DNA from: Candidatus Omnitrophota bacterium
GTDB taxonomy: Bacteria; Omnitrophota; Gorgyraeia; VGKN01
Length of the DNA: 40,071 bases
Direction: 5' to 3'
Assembly (NCBI GenBank): GCA_020052955.1
Contig: JAGVOB010000152.1
Location: forward strand, 1-40,071
Shown here: one piece after another, positions 7,058 through 15,800 of the stretch
How the letters are laid out: each line of letters begins with the position of its first letter
Numbering within the stretch: the first letter of the stretch is position 1
Translations under genes and position numbers: made by a program
Notes under the pieces: generated by a model
The model's database searches: none
Told to the model about the DNA's origin: nothing
The model's input: only the letters and a program-made list of their open reading frames with translations

Positions 7058-7648
7058 TCAATTTAACGTAAATTCTGAAAAGCCTTCTTTAGCGCTATTT
7101 AGCCCGGATTCCAATTCGTTTATGAGGAATTTTAACTGCGCAATATCCGGCTGGGATTTTGTCAATTCCGCCTTAATAGATTCTACGGCTGTTAAACTCT
7201 TGGCGGTTAATTGTTCCGGTTTTTTAAGTTTCTCTTTAAGGGAAAACGTCATGTCATTTATCTGCTGGGCAAGATCCTGAAGCTCGTCTGTCTTTCTTAG
7301 TTTTACGCTCAAAGAGAGATTCCCCTTTCCTATATCCTGCAAGCTTCTTTCTATCCTTACCAGCGGCCCCGCTATCCTGTGCGAAACAATAACGGTCGCC
7401 ACAGTTATAAGGATAATGGCCAACAAAAATCCCGCCGCAAGCCTTAAATTCAATTCGTTTACTATAGCCATTAGCCTGTGTTGCGGAAAAACCTTTGAGA
7501 GCTTTCCAACTAAGACCGTCATGCTGGAGTTGTATACGATAAATCCGCATACCAGGCCTATTAACAGCATAAATAATAAAACAAAGGCTGCAAATTTTAA
7601 CTGGAATTTCCTTACAATAAATATCCTTCTGACGTTCTTATCCGGCAT
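7058..7648 (-). CDS. Membrane protein with two TM segments, HAMP domain and short coiled-coil; no output domain
   Basis: FAAFVLLFMLLIGLVCGFIVY, LAAGFLLAIILITVATVIVSHRIAGPLVRIERSLQDIGKGNLSLSVKLRKTDELQDLAQQINDM (HAMP); SD aggaggtgagaaaATG. Confidence 0.88.
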   Translation of the reverse strand: MPDKNVRRIFIVRKFQLKFAAFVLLFMLLIGLVCGFIVYNSSMTVLVGKLSKVFPQHRLMAIVNELNLRLAAGFLLAIILITVATVIVSHRIAGPLVRIERSLQDIGKGNLSLSVKLRKTDELQDLAQQINDMTFSLKEKLKKPEQLTAKSLTAVESIKAELTKSQPDIAQLKFLINELESGLNSAKEGFSEFTLN

Positions 7649-7652
7649 TTTC

Positions 7653-7755
7653 TCACCTCCTCAATGACCCTGCACCGTATGGTGCAGGGGAATTGATCCC
7701 GAGTCCGCCATAATTTGTGGCGGACGAGGGATCTATCTTATTTAATAATCCCTAA
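7653..7755 (-). repeat. Modular hairpin intergenic repeat, copy B (two stem-loops, ends in Shine-Dalgarno)
   Basis: Plus strand: cctcctcaatga [CCCTGCACCgtatGGTGCAGGG] gaattgatcccga [GTCCGCCataatttgtGGCGGAC] gagggatctatcttatttaataatccctaa; scaffold shared with 10217-10305. Confidence 0.9.
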
Positions 7756-7893
7756 ACTATACTGGAAATTTCATAGCTGTCCGCTAAAAATTTCAAGTAT
7801 GACTAAGCAAGGGACAATTGCGATTATAAATTATGTATTATGGATTAAGTGAAATTTAACTCATAATCTATAATCAGTAACTAATAACTATTT

Positions 7894-8973
7894 TCATTCC
7901 TTTCTTATTAAAGAAATTTCTCTTCTTATTAAAAGCTTTAGCGGGCCCTCCCTTGCCTTTTCCTGCGCCAAGGCCCTTACCTTATCAAGGCCCGTATACC
8001 TTATCTGGTCGTCATTTATCTTATATATGATATCGCCGTTGTTGATGCCGGCCTCTGAGGCGGGGCTATTTTCGGGAATATCCGACGCCCTGAAACCTTG
8101 TTCATCCAGTATAATATTAAACCCAAGCTGTCTCTCAATGTCATTTGCTGAAACACTCACCGGCAATATAATTTCCCTCTGGATAATAAGCCTCAATTCT
8201 TTATATTTAGGGTCAAGCAGCAGTCTCTCTATATCTTCTTCGCTGGAATAACCTATAAGATTCCCCCATATAGAGACTATTAAATCGCCACCCTTTAATC
8301 CGGAGATTTCTGCAGGAGAACCCTTCAGCAATTGTTTTATCATAACCCCCTCTGTATTCTTTTCGTATGTAACGCCTATTGTCTCTCTTATCCTCTCGCG
8401 GGCGGTTTTTATTCCGGAATTTTTCTTGGGGGTAACAACGCCTGAAATCTCCGCTCTTCTTATTATCTCTTCCTTCTTTTCAAATTCCTTTCTTCTCAGC
8501 TTAAGCGTTGTAACCAGGCTTATTGCATCCCTGGCTTCCTTAAAATTAGGCTTCTCTGCCAAGGCCTTTTTATAATATTCAATCGCCTTGTCTAAATTAT
8601 CCTTCTCTTTATAAAGATTACCGATCACCAAAAAGTTTTGCTCTTTGGTGTCATAAATTATCTCCTGGATATCCTTTTTTAAGATTTGAGCCTCTCCCTC
8701 TTCCTGGCTAAATACAATTCTATCGGAATACCTTTCTATCACTACGCCTTTCTCTTCCCTGCCATCTTTAAGCCTGACGGTATCAGAAAAGGCACTCTCA
8801 CAAAGAACGAAATGAATTGTAGCACTAATCCAAATAGCAAAAATCCCTGCCTTGCCGGCAGGCAGGAAAATCCCCACCTGCCGAAGCAAAGCAGCGGACA
8901 GGCAAAATGACATATCAAAATGTAAAATTTTTAAACAATTTTGGATTTTTAATTGTAATTTTGATTTTTGCAT
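7894..8973 (-). CDS. Periplasmic/secreted TPR plus tandem PDZ-domain protein
   Basis: TVRLKDGREEKGVVIERYSDRIVF; TPR NLYKEKDNLDKAIEYYKKALAEKPNFKEAR; PDZ GVMIKQLLKGSPAEISGLKGGDLIVSI and FRASDIPENSPASEAGINNGDIIYKINDDQI. True start may be downstream of 8973 (see findings). Confidence 0.85.
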   Translation of the reverse strand: MQKSKLQLKIQNCLKILHFDMSFCLSAALLRQVGIFLPAGKAGIFAIWISATIHFVLCESAFSDTVRLKDGREEKGVVIERYSDRIVFSQEEGEAQILKKDIQEIIYDTKEQNFLVIGNLYKEKDNLDKAIEYYKKALAEKPNFKEARDAISLVTTLKLRRKEFEKKEEIIRRAEISGVVTPKKNSGIKTARERIRETIGVTYEKNTEGVMIKQLLKGSPAEISGLKGGDLIVSIWGNLIGYSSEEDIERLLLDPKYKELRLIIQREIILPVSVSANDIERQLGFNIILDEQGFRASDIPENSPASEAGINNGDIIYKINDDQIRYTGLDKVRALAQEKAREGPLKLLIRREISLIRKE

Positions 8974-8990
8974 TTTGATTTTTGGATTAA
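8840..8990. repeat. AT-rich tandem-like tract plus palindromic CCTGCC-rich hairpin repeat at the 5' end of the PDZ gene
   Basis: cctgccttgccggcaggcagg (8846-8866), cctgccgaagcaaagcagcggacagg (8878-8903), then ttttggatttttaattgtaattttgatttttgcattttgatttttgg. Confidence 0.7.
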
Positions 8991-8994
8991 ACCA

Positions 8995-10215
8995 TCATGT
9001 CTCCTGCTCCTCAAGTGATGGTTTCTTAATTTCTTCTTCGGGTTTTTGCTCCTCGTCAGCCTCTCCCTGAACTTCCAACACCTCGCATAGGCTATTATCC
9101 TTTAATTCGCCCTGCGATTCCGTAATCACCAGTTCTCCGTCGTTAAGACCCTCTTCTATAACCGCGTATTCTATCGTCCGATAGCCCGGCTTGATAGAAC
9201 GCTGTTCGGCCGTATCTTTTTTGCCTTCCTCTTTTTTTACAACAAATACATAATATGCGTCTTCCTTCTTTCTAATCGCTCCTGTCGGCAAAAGAATGGC
9301 GCCTTCCTTCTCGTAAACGCTTATCGATGCCCTGGCAAACATACCCGGCTTAATAAGCATGTCCTTATTGTCGAGCTTTATCTTTACGGTCATGGTCCTG
9401 CTTCTTCCTTCAATCTGCGGGAATACCTTGTCAACGGCCCCGAAAAAGTCCTTATCCGGGTAGGTATCTACGTTAACCTTCGCGGATTGCCCCAGCTTTA
9501 TCTTCTCTATATCCTTTTCGGTTATGCCGATTTCTACATAAACAGCGCTTATATCCATAAGAGTTGCAACCTTTATATTCGGGTTTACAAGCTCTCCCGC
9601 CTCGGCGTCCTTTGAGGTGAGCACGCTGTCTATCGGCGCAAACAGGGATGTCTTATCAAGCTCGTTTTCGGAATGTTCCACCTCGAGCTTAGACGTCTCA
9701 ACCTTTGACTTTGCAACCTCATATTCCTGGCTGACCTCGTCCAGCTTTGCTTTTATAATCGAGCCTGCCTCGTACAGTTTTTGGTACACCTCCAACTTCT
9801 TCTTTCCGGCTTGCATCTCTGCCTGGGCCGTCTTTAGCTTTGACTTGTTGTATTCAATATTCAATTGGGCTTCCTTCTGATTCAAGGCGGCTATCACCTC
9901 GCCCTTTTTTACTATATCGCCCACCTTAAAATTTATCGCCTCAATTATACCCGTTGACTCAAATTTCAAATTTACCTCAGACACCCCTTTTACCGTGCCC
10001 ATGCTGGGGAAGGTATCAACAAAATCAATTTTAGTAACTTTGAATGCGCGCACAGGTATAACCTGCTCTTCCTTCTGTATCTCTTCCTTCAGCTGCGCCT
10101 GTTCTAAGTGAGGCAGTTTTGGTTTTCTCGCAAAAATACTGTACGCATACAATATGACAACGCCCGTAATAATAATCAGGACCATAAGCGTGAACTTCTG
10201 TTTTTTTTGCGGCAT
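8995..10215 (-). CDS. RND efflux periplasmic adaptor (membrane fusion protein, HlyD/AcrA family)
   Basis: VGDIVKKGEVIAALNQKEAQLNIEYNKSKLKTAQAEMQ...DKTSLFAPIDSVLTSKDAEAGELVNPNIKVATLMDISAVYVEIGITEKDIEKIKLGQSAKVNVD; SD gaggaggttcaaATG. Confidence 0.95.
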   Translation of the reverse strand: MPQKKQKFTLMVLIIITGVVILYAYSIFARKPKLPHLEQAQLKEEIQKEEQVIPVRAFKVTKIDFVDTFPSMGTVKGVSEVNLKFESTGIIEAINFKVGDIVKKGEVIAALNQKEAQLNIEYNKSKLKTAQAEMQAGKKKLEVYQKLYEAGSIIKAKLDEVSQEYEVAKSKVETSKLEVEHSENELDKTSLFAPIDSVLTSKDAEAGELVNPNIKVATLMDISAVYVEIGITEKDIEKIKLGQSAKVNVDTYPDKDFFGAVDKVFPQIEGRSRTMTVKIKLDNKDMLIKPGMFARASISVYEKEGAILLPTGAIRKKEDAYYVFVVKKEEGKKDTAEQRSIKPGYRTIEYAVIEEGLNDGELVITESQGELKDNSLCEVLEVQGEADEEQKPEEEIKKPSLEEQET

Positions 10216-10216
10216 T

Positions 10217-10305
10217 TGAACCTCCTCAATGAGTCCGCCATAGGCGGACGAATTGATCCCGAAGCTTAAGCGAGGGATCTATCTTATTTAATAATCTCTA
10301 AGCTT
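10217..10305 (-). repeat. Modular hairpin intergenic repeat, copy A (ends in Shine-Dalgarno)
   Basis: Plus strand: cctcctcaatga [GTCCGCCataGGCGGAC] gaattgatcccga [aGCTTAAGC] gagggatctatcttatttaataatctctaa; same scaffold as 7653-7755. Confidence 0.9.
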
Positions 10306-12692
10306 TATTTGAGTTTCTTTTCTCCCGCTACCTTAGTTTTCTCTAGTGGCTGTGGCGTTTCCACATTATAAAAACCGCTTAACCCTATCGCCTTATTTAT
10401 GCTTGATATAGCTGCAAAATAACTGTTGATGGCGTTCAAATAGGAGACCTTTTCATCCGTAAGCTTTATCTTGTTTTCAAGCAGCTCTGATAAAAGCGCC
10501 TCATCCACATCCACCTTTATCTGATTTACCACGATTTCCTTCTGCCTCAGCTGAATCTTTATAACAGAACCGTCCACCTGCATAATAGCCTTTTCATATC
10601 TGAAAAACGCCTCCCTTACCTCGCTGGATATGCTCTTTTTTACCTCGTTTAATTCGTTCAGGGCCTTTTTAAGGTCTATCTGGGCATTCTTTTCTTCTGA
10701 ATAGCGCGTAATATTGTTCAAGAGATTAAACTCCCAGCTCTGCGAAGAGGACCCTGTCCTTGTAGTCTGACCGAGTCTGGGCGATGTTTGATCCTTGCTC
10801 ATGTTATAGCTTAGGGTATTTCCGCCCAGTGGCTTTGTAAGCATAACGCCTCCATACCAGGTTTCGCCGAGTTCTAGACTCTCTGTCTTATAGGCTCCCC
10901 CGCCCTTCCCGTAAGAGCCTGTAAAGTCCACCTTAAACTGATTTTTATTCCTGGTGATTTTCTCCTCAAGCTCTTTTACCCTTACAGTAAGCTCGTTTAT
11001 AAATAACTCCGGCCTATTTTCATAGGCAAACTGCACGCTCTTTTCCAGATCTATATCTATCTTTGCATACTGAAGGGGCTCTTTTACCTCTATTTCATAG
11101 GAAGATGTGTCCAGATTTAATTCATGCTCCAGCTGCAATTTGCTAGAGCCCATCTCCATCTGCGCCACATTTATCTGGTAGAGTATTTGGGCGTAGAGGT
11201 TCTGAAGGTTCAGGTATTCCACCTCTGTAGAAAGCCCTACATCATATCTCCTCTTTGCAATTCCCAATATGTGTTCTGCCTCTGCCTTAAGCTCCTCCTG
11301 CGCCGCCAATACCATCTGCGCTCCGACGTAACTATAGAAAGCCATCTCAACCTTCGCTATAAAATCCGCCTTAATTTTATTATAGTTACGCTTTGCTATT
11401 TCAAGGTTAAGCTCGGCTTTCCTGACGGCATCGCGTAGCCTTCCGCCGTAATAGAGGGGCTGTTCCATCCTCAGCGTATATTCCCTCTCAAGAAAATCCA
11501 CATCATATATATCCCCTTCTGTTTTTACATTTTTAAAAGACGCCGACGGGAAAAGCGCTCTCTTAGCCTCCGTTACCTTAAGCTCCGCGAGCTTTACCTC
11601 GTCAAGGGCTATCTTTGCGCTCATATAATTATCAAGGCCAATATCAATACACTCTCTTAGGTTGGTTATCTTTTTCTTGGGCTTCTTTTCCTCTTTCGCG
11701 GGAGCTTGCGGCGCACCTACGAGCCTCCTCTCTTCCTCGCCCTTCCTGACAAGCTCTTCAACAGTAGGAGGTTTCTCAGCTAACTTTTGCGGTTCTTCCT
11801 TGAATTTTTCTTTCTGCGATCCCTCCTGTAGGCTCATCAGCTCCTCTGTCATCGCATAATCCCGGCCTTCTAATGGCTGCTTCTCTTTTTTTGCCTCAAG
11901 CTGTTTTTTTCTTATTTCTTCTTCTTTTTGCCTTCGGCTTTCAAACCGGCCTTTCTTCTGGGGCATAACCTCTACCGCTTTAACCAGGCCTGAGGGTTCC
12001 TTTTTTTGAGAGGGCGCTTCTTTAATTTTAACTGCCTCTTTAGGTTTCTTCTTTCTCTCCGATTCCTTTAACTTTTCGGCCTCTTTAGCTAAAATACGGT
12101 CCTGCTTTTCTTCCTCTAAAATATCTATTAATTCTTTTTGTTTGGCCTCATCAAGTGCCTCAGACATGAGCTCTTCACTTATTCTCCCTGCCTCGACAGT
12201 TTCCTTTTCCTCGCTTGGCTGTGCCAGCCTCGCAGCTAGGCTGGCAACTACAACCTTGGGCACTTCAATATCAACATTTAAAACTGTATCATTTTCTGCA
12301 TAAATACTATATTTGGGCTTTTGTTTAAACTCCACGATTATTCTCAGGATTTTAGGCGGGCTGGAAAGATAGTCAAAAAACTGGTGGAACCTTACCTCTT
12401 TAATATTCGCCGTATTCATCTGCCTTGTCATATACCGCTCGTCTGTAAAGGCGAGCTCCGCCTCCGGAATACTTATTATAAGCGTAGGGGGGTCTTCAAA
12501 CTCACTTGTGTCATAATAAGATATGGGCTTATCAGAAGTGATAACTATCCTGATTACGCCTTTCAGGGTTTTGAAGTTTACCTCTTTAATTCTTACGGGC
12601 TGGTATTCTTCTGAAAAGGAATTGAAAGGAACTATTAATATAAAAAGGAGCGCGGTAAAGATACTTATCAGGAAGGAATATTTTTTACTCAA
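10305..12692 (-). CDS. TolC-family outer membrane efflux protein with N-terminal AMIN domain and Lys/Glu-rich linker
   Basis: AMIN-like VRIKEVNFKTLKGVIRIVITSDKPISYYDTSEFEDPPTLIISIPEAEL...ILRIIVEFKQKPKYSIYAENDTVLNVDIE; TolC-like ITNLRECIDIGLDNYMSAKIALDEVKLAELKVTEAKRALFPSASF and GLSTEVEYLNLQNLYAQILYQINVAQ. Start codon is TTG. Confidence 0.9.
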   Translation of the reverse strand: MSKKYSFLISIFTALLFILIVPFNSFSEEYQPVRIKEVNFKTLKGVIRIVITSDKPISYYDTSEFEDPPTLIISIPEAELAFTDERYMTRQMNTANIKEVRFHQFFDYLSSPPKILRIIVEFKQKPKYSIYAENDTVLNVDIEVPKVVVASLAARLAQPSEEKETVEAGRISEELMSEALDEAKQKELIDILEEEKQDRILAKEAEKLKESERKKKPKEAVKIKEAPSQKKEPSGLVKAVEVMPQKKGRFESRRQKEEEIRKKQLEAKKEKQPLEGRDYAMTEELMSLQEGSQKEKFKEEPQKLAEKPPTVEELVRKGEEERRLVGAPQAPAKEEKKPKKKITNLRECIDIGLDNYMSAKIALDEVKLAELKVTEAKRALFPSASFKNVKTEGDIYDVDFLEREYTLRMEQPLYYGGRLRDAVRKAELNLEIAKRNYNKIKADFIAKVEMAFYSYVGAQMVLAAQEELKAEAEHILGIAKRRYDVGLSTEVEYLNLQNLYAQILYQINVAQMEMGSSKLQLEHELNLDTSSYEIEVKEPLQYAKIDIDLEKSVQFAYENRPELFINELTVRVKELEEKITRNKNQFKVDFTGSYGKGGGAYKTESLELGETWYGGVMLTKPLGGNTLSYNMSKDQTSPRLGQTTRTGSSSQSWEFNLLNNITRYSEEKNAQIDLKKALNELNEVKKSISSEVREAFFRYEKAIMQVDGSVIKIQLRQKEIVVNQIKVDVDEALLSELLENKIKLTDEKVSYLNAINSYFAAISSINKAIGLSGFYNVETPQPLEKTKVAGEKKLK

Positions 12693-12843: not shown

Positions 12844-15800
12844 TTAAGCAACCCTATCTAAAATAGCCTGCGGAAATTCCATATGTGGTATACCCAGGCT
12901 ATTCAACCATGCATTAGTCAATATAAAAAACCTTAAATAGCCATCTCCTAATGCTCTCAGATTTCTCATTTGCTCATAGGTCAACAATGCTATACAAGAA
13001 CTGTTCTGCCAGGCTCTATCAAAATGCCATATGCTAACATAAAAAATTCTTCCCGTCTTAATCTCTTCGCATTCAATTTTTCCTGTATATTGCTCGTTAA
13101 ATCGCTTATAAACCCTGAACCAACCTGTTATAATTTCTCCGTTGTCAGAATAGACATTTCTAAGATACACCGTACAACTTGTATTTAATCTCATAATCTG
13201 CTGAAGTTCCCAAAAACCTACAGGTTCGCCTTTTGCACTTGTTATGCGCACCAGCCCTGCAGTCTTAAGTATTCCATGCCCTCCTGAAATAACACAGACT
13301 CTCTGTTTCTTAAAAGCATCATATATAAGATTAGTTACTACGCCGGTTTCTGCTCTATCAATATCCATCCTTTCGCCAATTGCACGGCTTAGATACGCCT
13401 CTGGAGAATACGCTGGCACAGGATTTCTTCTACATTCATCGCCGCCTATAACAATCGTTTCGTCGCCAACTCTAAGAAGCGTGATAATATCCGCTATTGT
13501 ATGCCGGGCTTGTCCAAGGTATCTGCCCTCATTATCATAAATACCAAATAAGTTTTTCTTTTTTTCTCTGACAGCCCTGCCGCCTAAAACAGATATATCA
13601 GCAGCGGCGAATTTTTGCTGATATAATAATACAAAATTTTCATCTAACTCCTTCACATGGACTTCCCCGCTTTTTTCAAAATACTCTAAGCAGCCAAAGG
13701 CGCCAAGTTCCTTCGAAAGCAAGTCAAATTCCCGTATATTAAAACCGGATAGCATGCCGCTAAAGCGCGAAATCTCTTTCTGCAACCTGCTTCCTGCGAT
13801 GTGGATTTTTCCAAAGATATACCTTGCTCCGCGGTCATTTACCATCTCCTTCGTCCTCGGATGAAGTCTGAATATAATATGCTTCCCAGCACTTAAGCCT
13901 TCTTCAAAAAACTCCCTTGCGAGACTCACCGCAAAATGGTCCGTATCCGGATGGTCTAACCATATCTCTACGATATTTGAGGCGTTTATGCCGTGTTTGG
14001 CAAGGACTATTTTAAGCGCTCTATGGTGCGAGGTCCAGCCAAGCCCGATAATAATGAAGCGGCCCTTTTCTATCTCTATGACACGCGTATTTCCTCCTGC
14101 AGGTGGCATTATCTGCAAAAATCTTAAGCCGTTCCCAAGTTCAACTTCTTCTACAGCATACCTTGCCATAATATCATCAGTCTTCTCAAAATCTATACTC
14201 GGCTCTTTTAATTTGGAACTAACTGCGAGCTGAGAATCTAATAAAATAAATGTGCCCTTGATAAAATTTTCATACACCTCTTTGCTATTTTTTTGTCCTT
14301 TAGCAAAGAAATGCGCTGATATGACAATTTGCAGTACTTTATTAAAAATATCTTTTAATCCAGCGTTATTTATTTGTTCCATTTGATGTCTTATATATCG
14401 CGTAAGTGCTTTTTGTTTTCGCCTATCCAAAGGACCTGCCCCGGCAAGAGTTTCCTTAAGATAAACCAGTCTTCTGCGCATCATATTTATATCATCAACA
14501 GGGGTATTTATATCTGGATTAGATTCCATTTTCCCAACTGTTTTATTTCGCCTATCTTTAATCGGTGCAAAAATTGCGGGAAAAGTGTTAAAAATTTTTA
14601 AACCCCAAAGAATCGCAACGCGTCCATAATCCGGTTTTCCTTTTAACCGTCCTGTCTGCTGTAGGCGACTGTGCCATTTTGTTATTACCCAGTTGGAAAT
14701 ATCTACAAGAGCGGTTCCTTTTTTAAACAGTAAACCTAACATTCCAATAGATAAAACAACGAGCACAAAAGTAGACTCTGCCATAAAGGAATTTAAAACA
14801 AATATGGCATATCCTGCGGCAAGCAGGGACATAATACCAAACACTAATATGGCCATATTAGTAAGCCGTGCCCTATGAGCTTTCTGAATAATCATCGGTT
14901 TAAACCGTCTTGCGTCCCCCTTGAGAATGGAAACAATATCTTCAACCGCCTCTCTTGCTCTATCTTGACTTAAGGCGCCGTAAACATCAAAGTAAGAAAA
15001 ACGCCCTTCTCTCGGCTCTACTGAGGTAAGTGCATTTGTTAAATCATCCCCTGTCAGACCAACATCCTCCAGCGAAACAGGGAGTCCTAACGTCTCAGCC
15101 AGATGCTTAAGATACATCACATCAAGGCCATATAAATATCCCATAACAATTGTTGCTATGCCGACTTGTTCGCCATGAAGAATCTTTCCCCCTTCTTTAA
15201 GCACTCTTCTATGAGTAACCCTTTCAAGCTCATCGGAAAGAATATGTTCGCTCCCTGCTTTTGGCCGGCCAGACCAGAACAGCGTCATTAGATAAGAAAT
15301 CTCTCTGCCCAACTCTGCTGCAATGCGTATACCCTCTTTGGAGTTCGAGGCAATCTCTGCCGCAGAGGTGCTTAAACGCTGTAATATCCGTATAGTCTGA
15401 AGATATACAAACGGATCTGCCCGTTCCTCGCCATATTTAAGCGCTAATTCCCAATCCTTAAGCGCTACCCAGCAGCTGGCTAAATCGCCTGCGCCAGAAA
15501 TATTTCCTGTAGCATTAAGCTGGATAAATCCTAAGTCAATCAGTACCTTCTTCGCTGCGCCAACTGGAGCACCGTAGACTTCAAAGGACTCTCCGTGGGC
15601 GCCATATCCAAAACCATCACGTATAGCAACATTTGCCGTCCACATGGCATTGGTAGATATCGTGCTGGGAAAAAGATATACCTCGGTATTAAATTTATGG
15701 CCAAGAATCTTAGCCCAATCCATCACCGAACCTGCGCCAATACCGACGATAATAGGCGCTTTTGCGACAACCGATTCGTCGCGGACGCGCATTGCTTCCT

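Follow-up and report, generated by a model that had tools for sequence, protein, structure and literature searches.

A probable mobile double-hairpin element family at the 5' edges of genes across the Omnitrophota

We describe a family of double-hairpin elements, large, phylum-wide in Omnitrophota and not previously described, which is probably a non-autonomous, dispersed mobile element that settles at the 5' edges of genes. The genome analysed here carries about 80 copies, copy numbers per genome in the phylum range up to about 80, and the 3' edge of the unit lies overwhelmingly directly 5' of a Shine–Dalgarno sequence (SD). Near-identical units at unrelated loci, tandem and nested copies, mixing of hairpins between copies, presence and absence between species of one genus and a fixed 3' edge at gene boundaries are all directly observed. 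We weight mobility above a leader function because the presence of the unit is so patchy within a single genus.

Two copies in an efflux gene cluster and their common scaffold

The window (the whole stretch of DNA that was analysed, 40,071 nt) contains two copies of the unit at the positions given in the initial annotation, each recovered by sequence, exact pattern and covariance model. That annotation wrote the scaffold on the plus strand; the scaffold is real, but the genes lie on the minus strand and the functional reading therefore runs there, where both copies have the layout GATCCC-TC-[slot 2]-TC-GGGATC-AATTC-[slot 1]-TC-ATTGA-GGAGG, followed after 5 to 7 nt by ATG. Copy A (7656–7733, minus strand, as are all features of both copies and the genes 3' of them; 57.9 bits, E 1.1e-9) has an outer stem, GATCCC (7728–7733) pairing with GGGATC (7695–7700) around slot 2, which had been proposed earlier and is seen in the predicted fold, the same stem covarying in other genomes. 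By sequence and fold, slot 2 of copy A holds the hairpin GTCCGCC-ACAAATTAT-GGCGGAC (7703–7725) and slot 1 the hairpin CCCTGCACC-ATAC-GGTGCAGGG (7668–7689), the latter shared with the copy that precedes the gene for PPDK on contig C177. Copy B (10221–10279; 61.9 bits, E 1.4e-10) occupies most of the gap between a TolC-like gene (10305–12692) and a gene for an RND efflux periplasmic adaptor (8995–10215; TIGR01730, 240 bits), with a minimal hairpin, GCTTAAGC, in slot 2 (10264–10271) and GTCCGCC-TAT-GGCGGAC in slot 1 (10233–10249). The GTCCGCC/GGCGGAC hairpin, whose loop is 9 nt in copy A and 3 nt in copy B, had been assigned to slot 1 of copy A and slot 2 of copy B, which is the reverse of the actual arrangement. 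The proposed 5'-UTR placement holds: GAGGAGG lies 7 nt 5' of the ATG (7648–7646) of a gene for a HAMP-domain (PF00672) membrane protein (7058–7648) in copy A (7656–7662) and 5 nt 5' of the ATG (10215–10213) of the adaptor gene in copy B (10221–10227).

The slot-2 half matches exactly at 7690–7733 and 10250–10279, where shuffles give an expectation of 0, and TCCGCC..GGCGGA occurs at two sites in the whole window, both within these copies (0.01 expected). The surroundings are an RND efflux cluster beside a 9072-aa ORF, a single minus-strand open frame at 12844–40062. Elsewhere in the window, degenerate CTCAATnAACT-type tandem repeats (repeat family D5) lie between genes at 76–139 and 1805–1859, and GC-rich inverted repeats CTGCC..GGCAGG, a separate dispersed repeat type, lie in the 5' part of a PDZ/TPR gene at 8846–8915.

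Across the family, the scaffold consists of two adjoining hairpins, (A/G)TCCC-[slot 2]-GGGAT and then TYAATTC-[slot 1]-TCATTRA, of which the first (P1) pairs (A/G)TCCC with GGGA(T) around slot 2 and the second (P3) pairs TYAAT with ATTRA around slot 1. Slot hairpins are generally flanked by TC on both sides, and the slot-1 hairpin is so flanked in 135 of 147 parsed matches. The Y/R pair of P3 is C-G in 49, T-A in 53, T-G in 4 and C-A in 1 of 107 pattern-found copies, and P1 occurs as ATCCC/GGGAT, ACTCC/GGAGT, GTTCC/GGAAT and other variants. In 91 model matches taken from seven further genomes, pairing holds in 97.5% of cells and the covariation score reaches 0.486; shuffled alignments give 0.179 (0 of 500 reaching 0.486), and sliding the partners gives at most 0.083. 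This alignment leans to the model, and an independent MAFFT alignment agrees. Covariation and folds together indicate that the P1 and P3 stem-loops, side by side, form one dispersed unit.

Abundance, exchange of hairpins and patchy occupancy

Further copies, on which the initial annotation had staked its proposal, are plentiful. In the own genome, an exact slot-1-half pattern gives 37 copies and the reversed pattern gives none. A covariance model built from 31 diverse copies yields 89 matches there with an E cutoff of 1, of which about 76 fall under E 0.001; own-genome matches near 30–42 bits (for example L288, L295, L299, L302, L303 and L305) resemble other repeats, and matches of this type were kept in the denominator of 165 used below and unused as evidence. 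The model matches in at least 58 of 99 class relatives and in at least 118 of 286 genomes sampled phylum-wide (E up to 1e-4). A pattern scan of GTDB representatives returned at least 88 stretches, roughly two in three from MAGs bearing the name Omnitrophota, and a MAG labelled Nitrospirota, a label that is uncertain, holds at least 35 copies. Well-formed copies also stand on contigs not named Omnitrophota (L509 from IMG/VR, L118 from a Deltaproteobacteria MAG, L127 and L172 from Nitrospirota MAGs) and could mean that the family is wider, that it has spread horizontally or that bins carry the wrong label; two pattern matches fall on viral contigs, L509 alone having the full scaffold features. 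Scattered pattern matches in other groups, among them Pelagibacteraceae, Vibrio and Bacteroidota, have no P1 stem and were set aside as chance. None of 4227 Rfam families matches the window, the sole Rfam match in six element-bearing loci is an adjoining tmRNA gene, and no relevant family appears at permissive or curated thresholds; the open literature, which leaves subscription papers outside its reach, gave analogues only and no earlier account of such elements in Omnitrophota.

The proposal of interchangeable hairpins in a fixed scaffold, together with mobility, is borne out by mixed slots, a duplicated unit, tandem and nested copies, and sites that are occupied in one species and empty in another of the same genus. 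Over an 81-nt stretch that begins just outside P1 and runs to the SD, copy A shares 98% identity with the unit preceding PPDK, the flanks being unrelated. The slot 2 of copy A is 91–98% identical over about 45 nt to sequence at about 17 further loci, and its hairpin is near-identical in about 20 other copies of the own genome. Slots combine freely among 41 own-genome copies, slot-2 type A, for one, being paired with five slot-1 types (a to e). Nesting of one hairpin in another is common, and so are head-to-tail units, for example at L009, L023, L024, L027 and L039. Preferred hairpins differ by genome (GTCCGCC-TNN-GGCGGAC in the own genome, GTCCGCCAACGAACTTTGGCGGAC in JADHWR, GACTAAGCATTTTTTAG.. 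in JAHJHM), and at an orthologous Lrp-family locus in two genomes of one genus, G044 and G091, slot 2 is kept and the stem base of the slot-1 hairpin is almost wholly changed. A cloverleaf-like three-hairpin module, CCC-[hairpin]-GGGACTAAGTCC-[hairpin]-GGG, is found repeatedly in several Omnitrophota genomes, both within slots and outside them (L026, L057, L075, L076, L320, L325 and L506, inside slot 2), and may be another mobile palindrome.

Same-genus comparisons reveal filled and empty sites of the kind known for miniature elements (MITEs). Eleven copy-bearing genes of G044 have in G091 a copy in three cases (Lrp, pfkA and a PAPS-reductase-like gene), a plain leader with its own SD in five, a remnant in one (rpmA) and other sequence in two. 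At a pilT-like gene, the empty site in G091 reads TAG-CTATTATTAAGGAGGAATA-ATG and the filled site in G044 reads TGA-GTTT[GTCCC..TCATT]GAGGAGAAATAAAA-ATG. At rpmE in another same-genus pair, G092/G045, the empty site is TTTAAAGAAAGGAAATAGTAAA-ATG and the filled site TTTAAAGGAA[TTTCC..TCATT]AAGGAGAAGAAAA-ATG, with AAAGGAA 5' and AAGGAG 3' of the unit against a single AAAGGAAA at the empty site, a pattern that would fit duplication of AAGGA. These pairs are between species, and therefore deletion and gain are incompletely separated. In the rph leader (L417), the position taken by the double-hairpin unit in G044 is filled in G091 by a repeat of another kind, CCCCGTTAGAGAT..ATCTCTAACGGGG.

We hypothesize that the unit moves as DNA or via an RNA intermediate and that it would insert at or just 5' of an SD-like AAGGAG, sometimes leaving a duplicate; the gene would thereby retain its ribosome-binding site, and the insertion would be tolerated as a structured 5' UTR, with an effect on expression that is probably neutral or mildly stabilising. 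Slot exchange may proceed by recombination or template switching between palindromic copies, of which there are many, or by insertion of one hairpin into the tip of another. Target duplication at insertion is suggested by SD-like motifs upstream of P1 in 9 of 10 copies in G092, 19 of 69 own copies and 32 of 140 overall, against 7 of 140 in a more distant interval; AAGGA flanks are absent in G044 and G003 and rare in G070 and G099, hence such duplication is not general. No transposase or autonomous partner for the double-hairpin unit was identified. The Y1 transposase (PF01797, TnpA_REP) is not a convincing mobiliser: it is encoded in 79 of 99 genomes, many of them without copies, the correlation between its count and the number of copies is weak (rho 0.25, p 0.011), and the count is zero in the copy-rich, incomplete genomes G051 and G059.

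Position at gene starts and competing readings

Most copies sit at ribosome-binding sites, as the initial annotation had expected. The 3' end is no more than a few nt from a start codon in 132 of 165 non-redundant model matches (117 of them ATG), whereas random positions taken from the same loci give 10% (ATG, 4%), with the qualification that the model includes AGGAGG and is slightly biased towards SDs. There are exceptions: one copy ends at the first base of a tRNA-Leu gene (0 nt gap), one lies directly 5' of tmRNA, several adjoin an ATG without an SD, the 3' edges of L300 and L283 touch the stop codon of an ORF on the other strand, and at L329 such an opposite-strand ORF extends into the unit. 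Because of these exceptions, we take the scaffold to end at ATTRA and the SD to be the neighbour's own in at least some cases; an SD integral to the scaffold is ruled out by the tRNA, tmRNA and SD-less examples. The earlier claim that the 3' end supplies the SD is unsupported as stated, since the same neighbours are adjoined and empty sites have an SD at similar spacing. Likewise, of the suggestion of a mobile or translation-control element, mobility stands, whereas translation control is unsupported as stated, given these neighbours and an SD left unpaired in the predicted folds; the family is not simply an RNA translation switch. At infC, the start codon right after the unit's SD is apparently ATT or ATA, as in other bacteria (L068, L153, L431, L433).

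Housekeeping genes that recurrently carry copies include rpmE, PPDK, dnaK, HU, infC, glnA and clpP, and copy-bearing genes are mostly conserved and probably highly expressed. Orthologous genes carrying copies in different families were found for 42 genome pairs, where at most about 10 would be expected with all of some 1500 genes having the same chance of carrying a copy. Such sharing is not something that a purely selfish element would require; it fits a target preference for strong SDs as well as a selected leader function, both being possible, and the enrichment 5' of conserved housekeeping genes leaves room for a functional leader role.

The leading alternative, which we consider unlikely though worth serious weight, is a functional 5' leader RNA, in which the double hairpin is selected, for example for nuclease protection or to keep the SD accessible to ribosomes, the slots vary since any stem suffices, and copies spread by gene conversion. 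The position before start codons, the strong covariation that collapses when partners are slid, the recurrence of housekeeping genes and the unpaired SD in the predicted folds of both window copies would all follow, as would the rpmA copy of G044 downstream of an ordinary TTGACA/TATAAT promoter. The presence of that promoter in relatives without the full unit speaks for the mobile reading. Selection for a leader is difficult to reconcile with patchiness even inside one genus, with a survey of infC, rpmE and rpmA in 29 copy-rich genomes, where a minority of the leaders carry the unit, and with units adjoining tRNA, tmRNA and gene 3' ends as well; moreover, template-switch repair can also yield covariation in DNA palindromes. 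Against the mobile reading, the orientation and position of the unit are stricter than those of most MITEs.

A cis-regulatory switch of one regulon (riboswitch, protein-binding element or thermosensor) could account for the conservation of TC/TC pairs that stay single-stranded and for a AAAATTCTCTTCGATAATTTT tip that recurs on hairpins, but the downstream genes have no common theme, Rfam matches are absent, slot sequences vary between genomes and the predicted folds of both window copies do not sequester the SD, in keeping with a tolerated leader more than with a switch; this already disfavoured reading is very improbable. Slighter still is the chance of a promoter-plus-leader cassette, suggested by a AAGGAGATGATACAATAACAG block with a -10-like TACAAT before P1 in many own-genome copies, since the upstream flank elsewhere is merely AT-rich with no -10/-35 at fixed spacing, the rpmA promoter lies about 60 nt further upstream, and a promoter within the unit was rejected on upstream logos that contain no general -10/-35.

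Relation to known repeats and implications

REP/BIME and REPIN sequences are short palindromic intergenic repeats, Y1/RAYT-associated, that reach tens to hundreds of copies and form tandem and composite arrays. The Omnitrophota units are likewise short, palindromic, intergenic, many-copy and tandem or composite; however, REP-type repeats lie mostly 3' of genes, whereas the Omnitrophota unit lies 5' of starts, has two hairpins and is weakly related to Y1 counts. MITEs such as ERIC, YPAL, NEMIS/Correia and RUP/BOX are non-autonomous, intergenic and transcribed into stable stem-loops, with filled and empty sites (PMC2229807, PMC10969869), and the 2024 review among these sources makes no mention of ribosome binding, Shine–Dalgarno or start codon. 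The Omnitrophota unit shares their non-autonomy, intergenic location, stem-loops and filled and empty sites, but its side-by-side hairpins leave no inverted repeat joining the unit ends and hence no terminal inverted repeats spanning it, target duplication is inconsistent, and its adjacency to the SD is fixed. The TAACTGA direct repeats of marine Beggiatoaceae are also abundant, intergenic and a few nt from start codons, including those of ribosomal protein genes, but they are short heptamers without hairpin slots, in genomes where canonical SDs are rare (PMC4679880).

Mitochondrial double-hairpin, or repetitive hairpin-forming, elements of Allomyces and sponges (Paquin et al. 2000, as cited in PMC2800124) resemble the Omnitrophota family in joining two adjacent stem-loops as one dispersed unit. 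They are short, hairpin-forming, mostly intergenic and many per genome, their numbers vary between close relatives, and their mobility is inferred by comparison. The Omnitrophota family differs in residing in bacterial chromosomes with a scaffold conserved in sequence across a phylum, in a 3' edge fixed at gene starts beside the SD and in exchangeable hairpins in defined slots, and the likeness is one of form. By analogy, the unit appears to behave like mitochondrial double-hairpin elements and REP/MITE repeats while fully matching the definition of none of them.

A further-reaching possibility, which we advance only tentatively, is that phylum-wide mobile DNA targets Shine–Dalgarno sites, landing 5' of AAGGAG or duplicating it, and gives dozens of housekeeping mRNAs in each genome hairpin-capped leaders with exchangeable cassettes, that is, a shared, evolvable 5'-UTR module. 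If the mobile reading is right, mobile repeats across a whole phylum would have overcome the difficulty of inserting into a gene-dense genome by making the ribosome-binding site their landing place, and the leaders of numerous essential genes would have gained a strong structure from them. The family would then offer a natural replicated experiment on leader structure versus expression, a caution that covarying stems by themselves are no proof of a regulatory RNA, and a bacterial counterpart of organellar double-hairpin elements.
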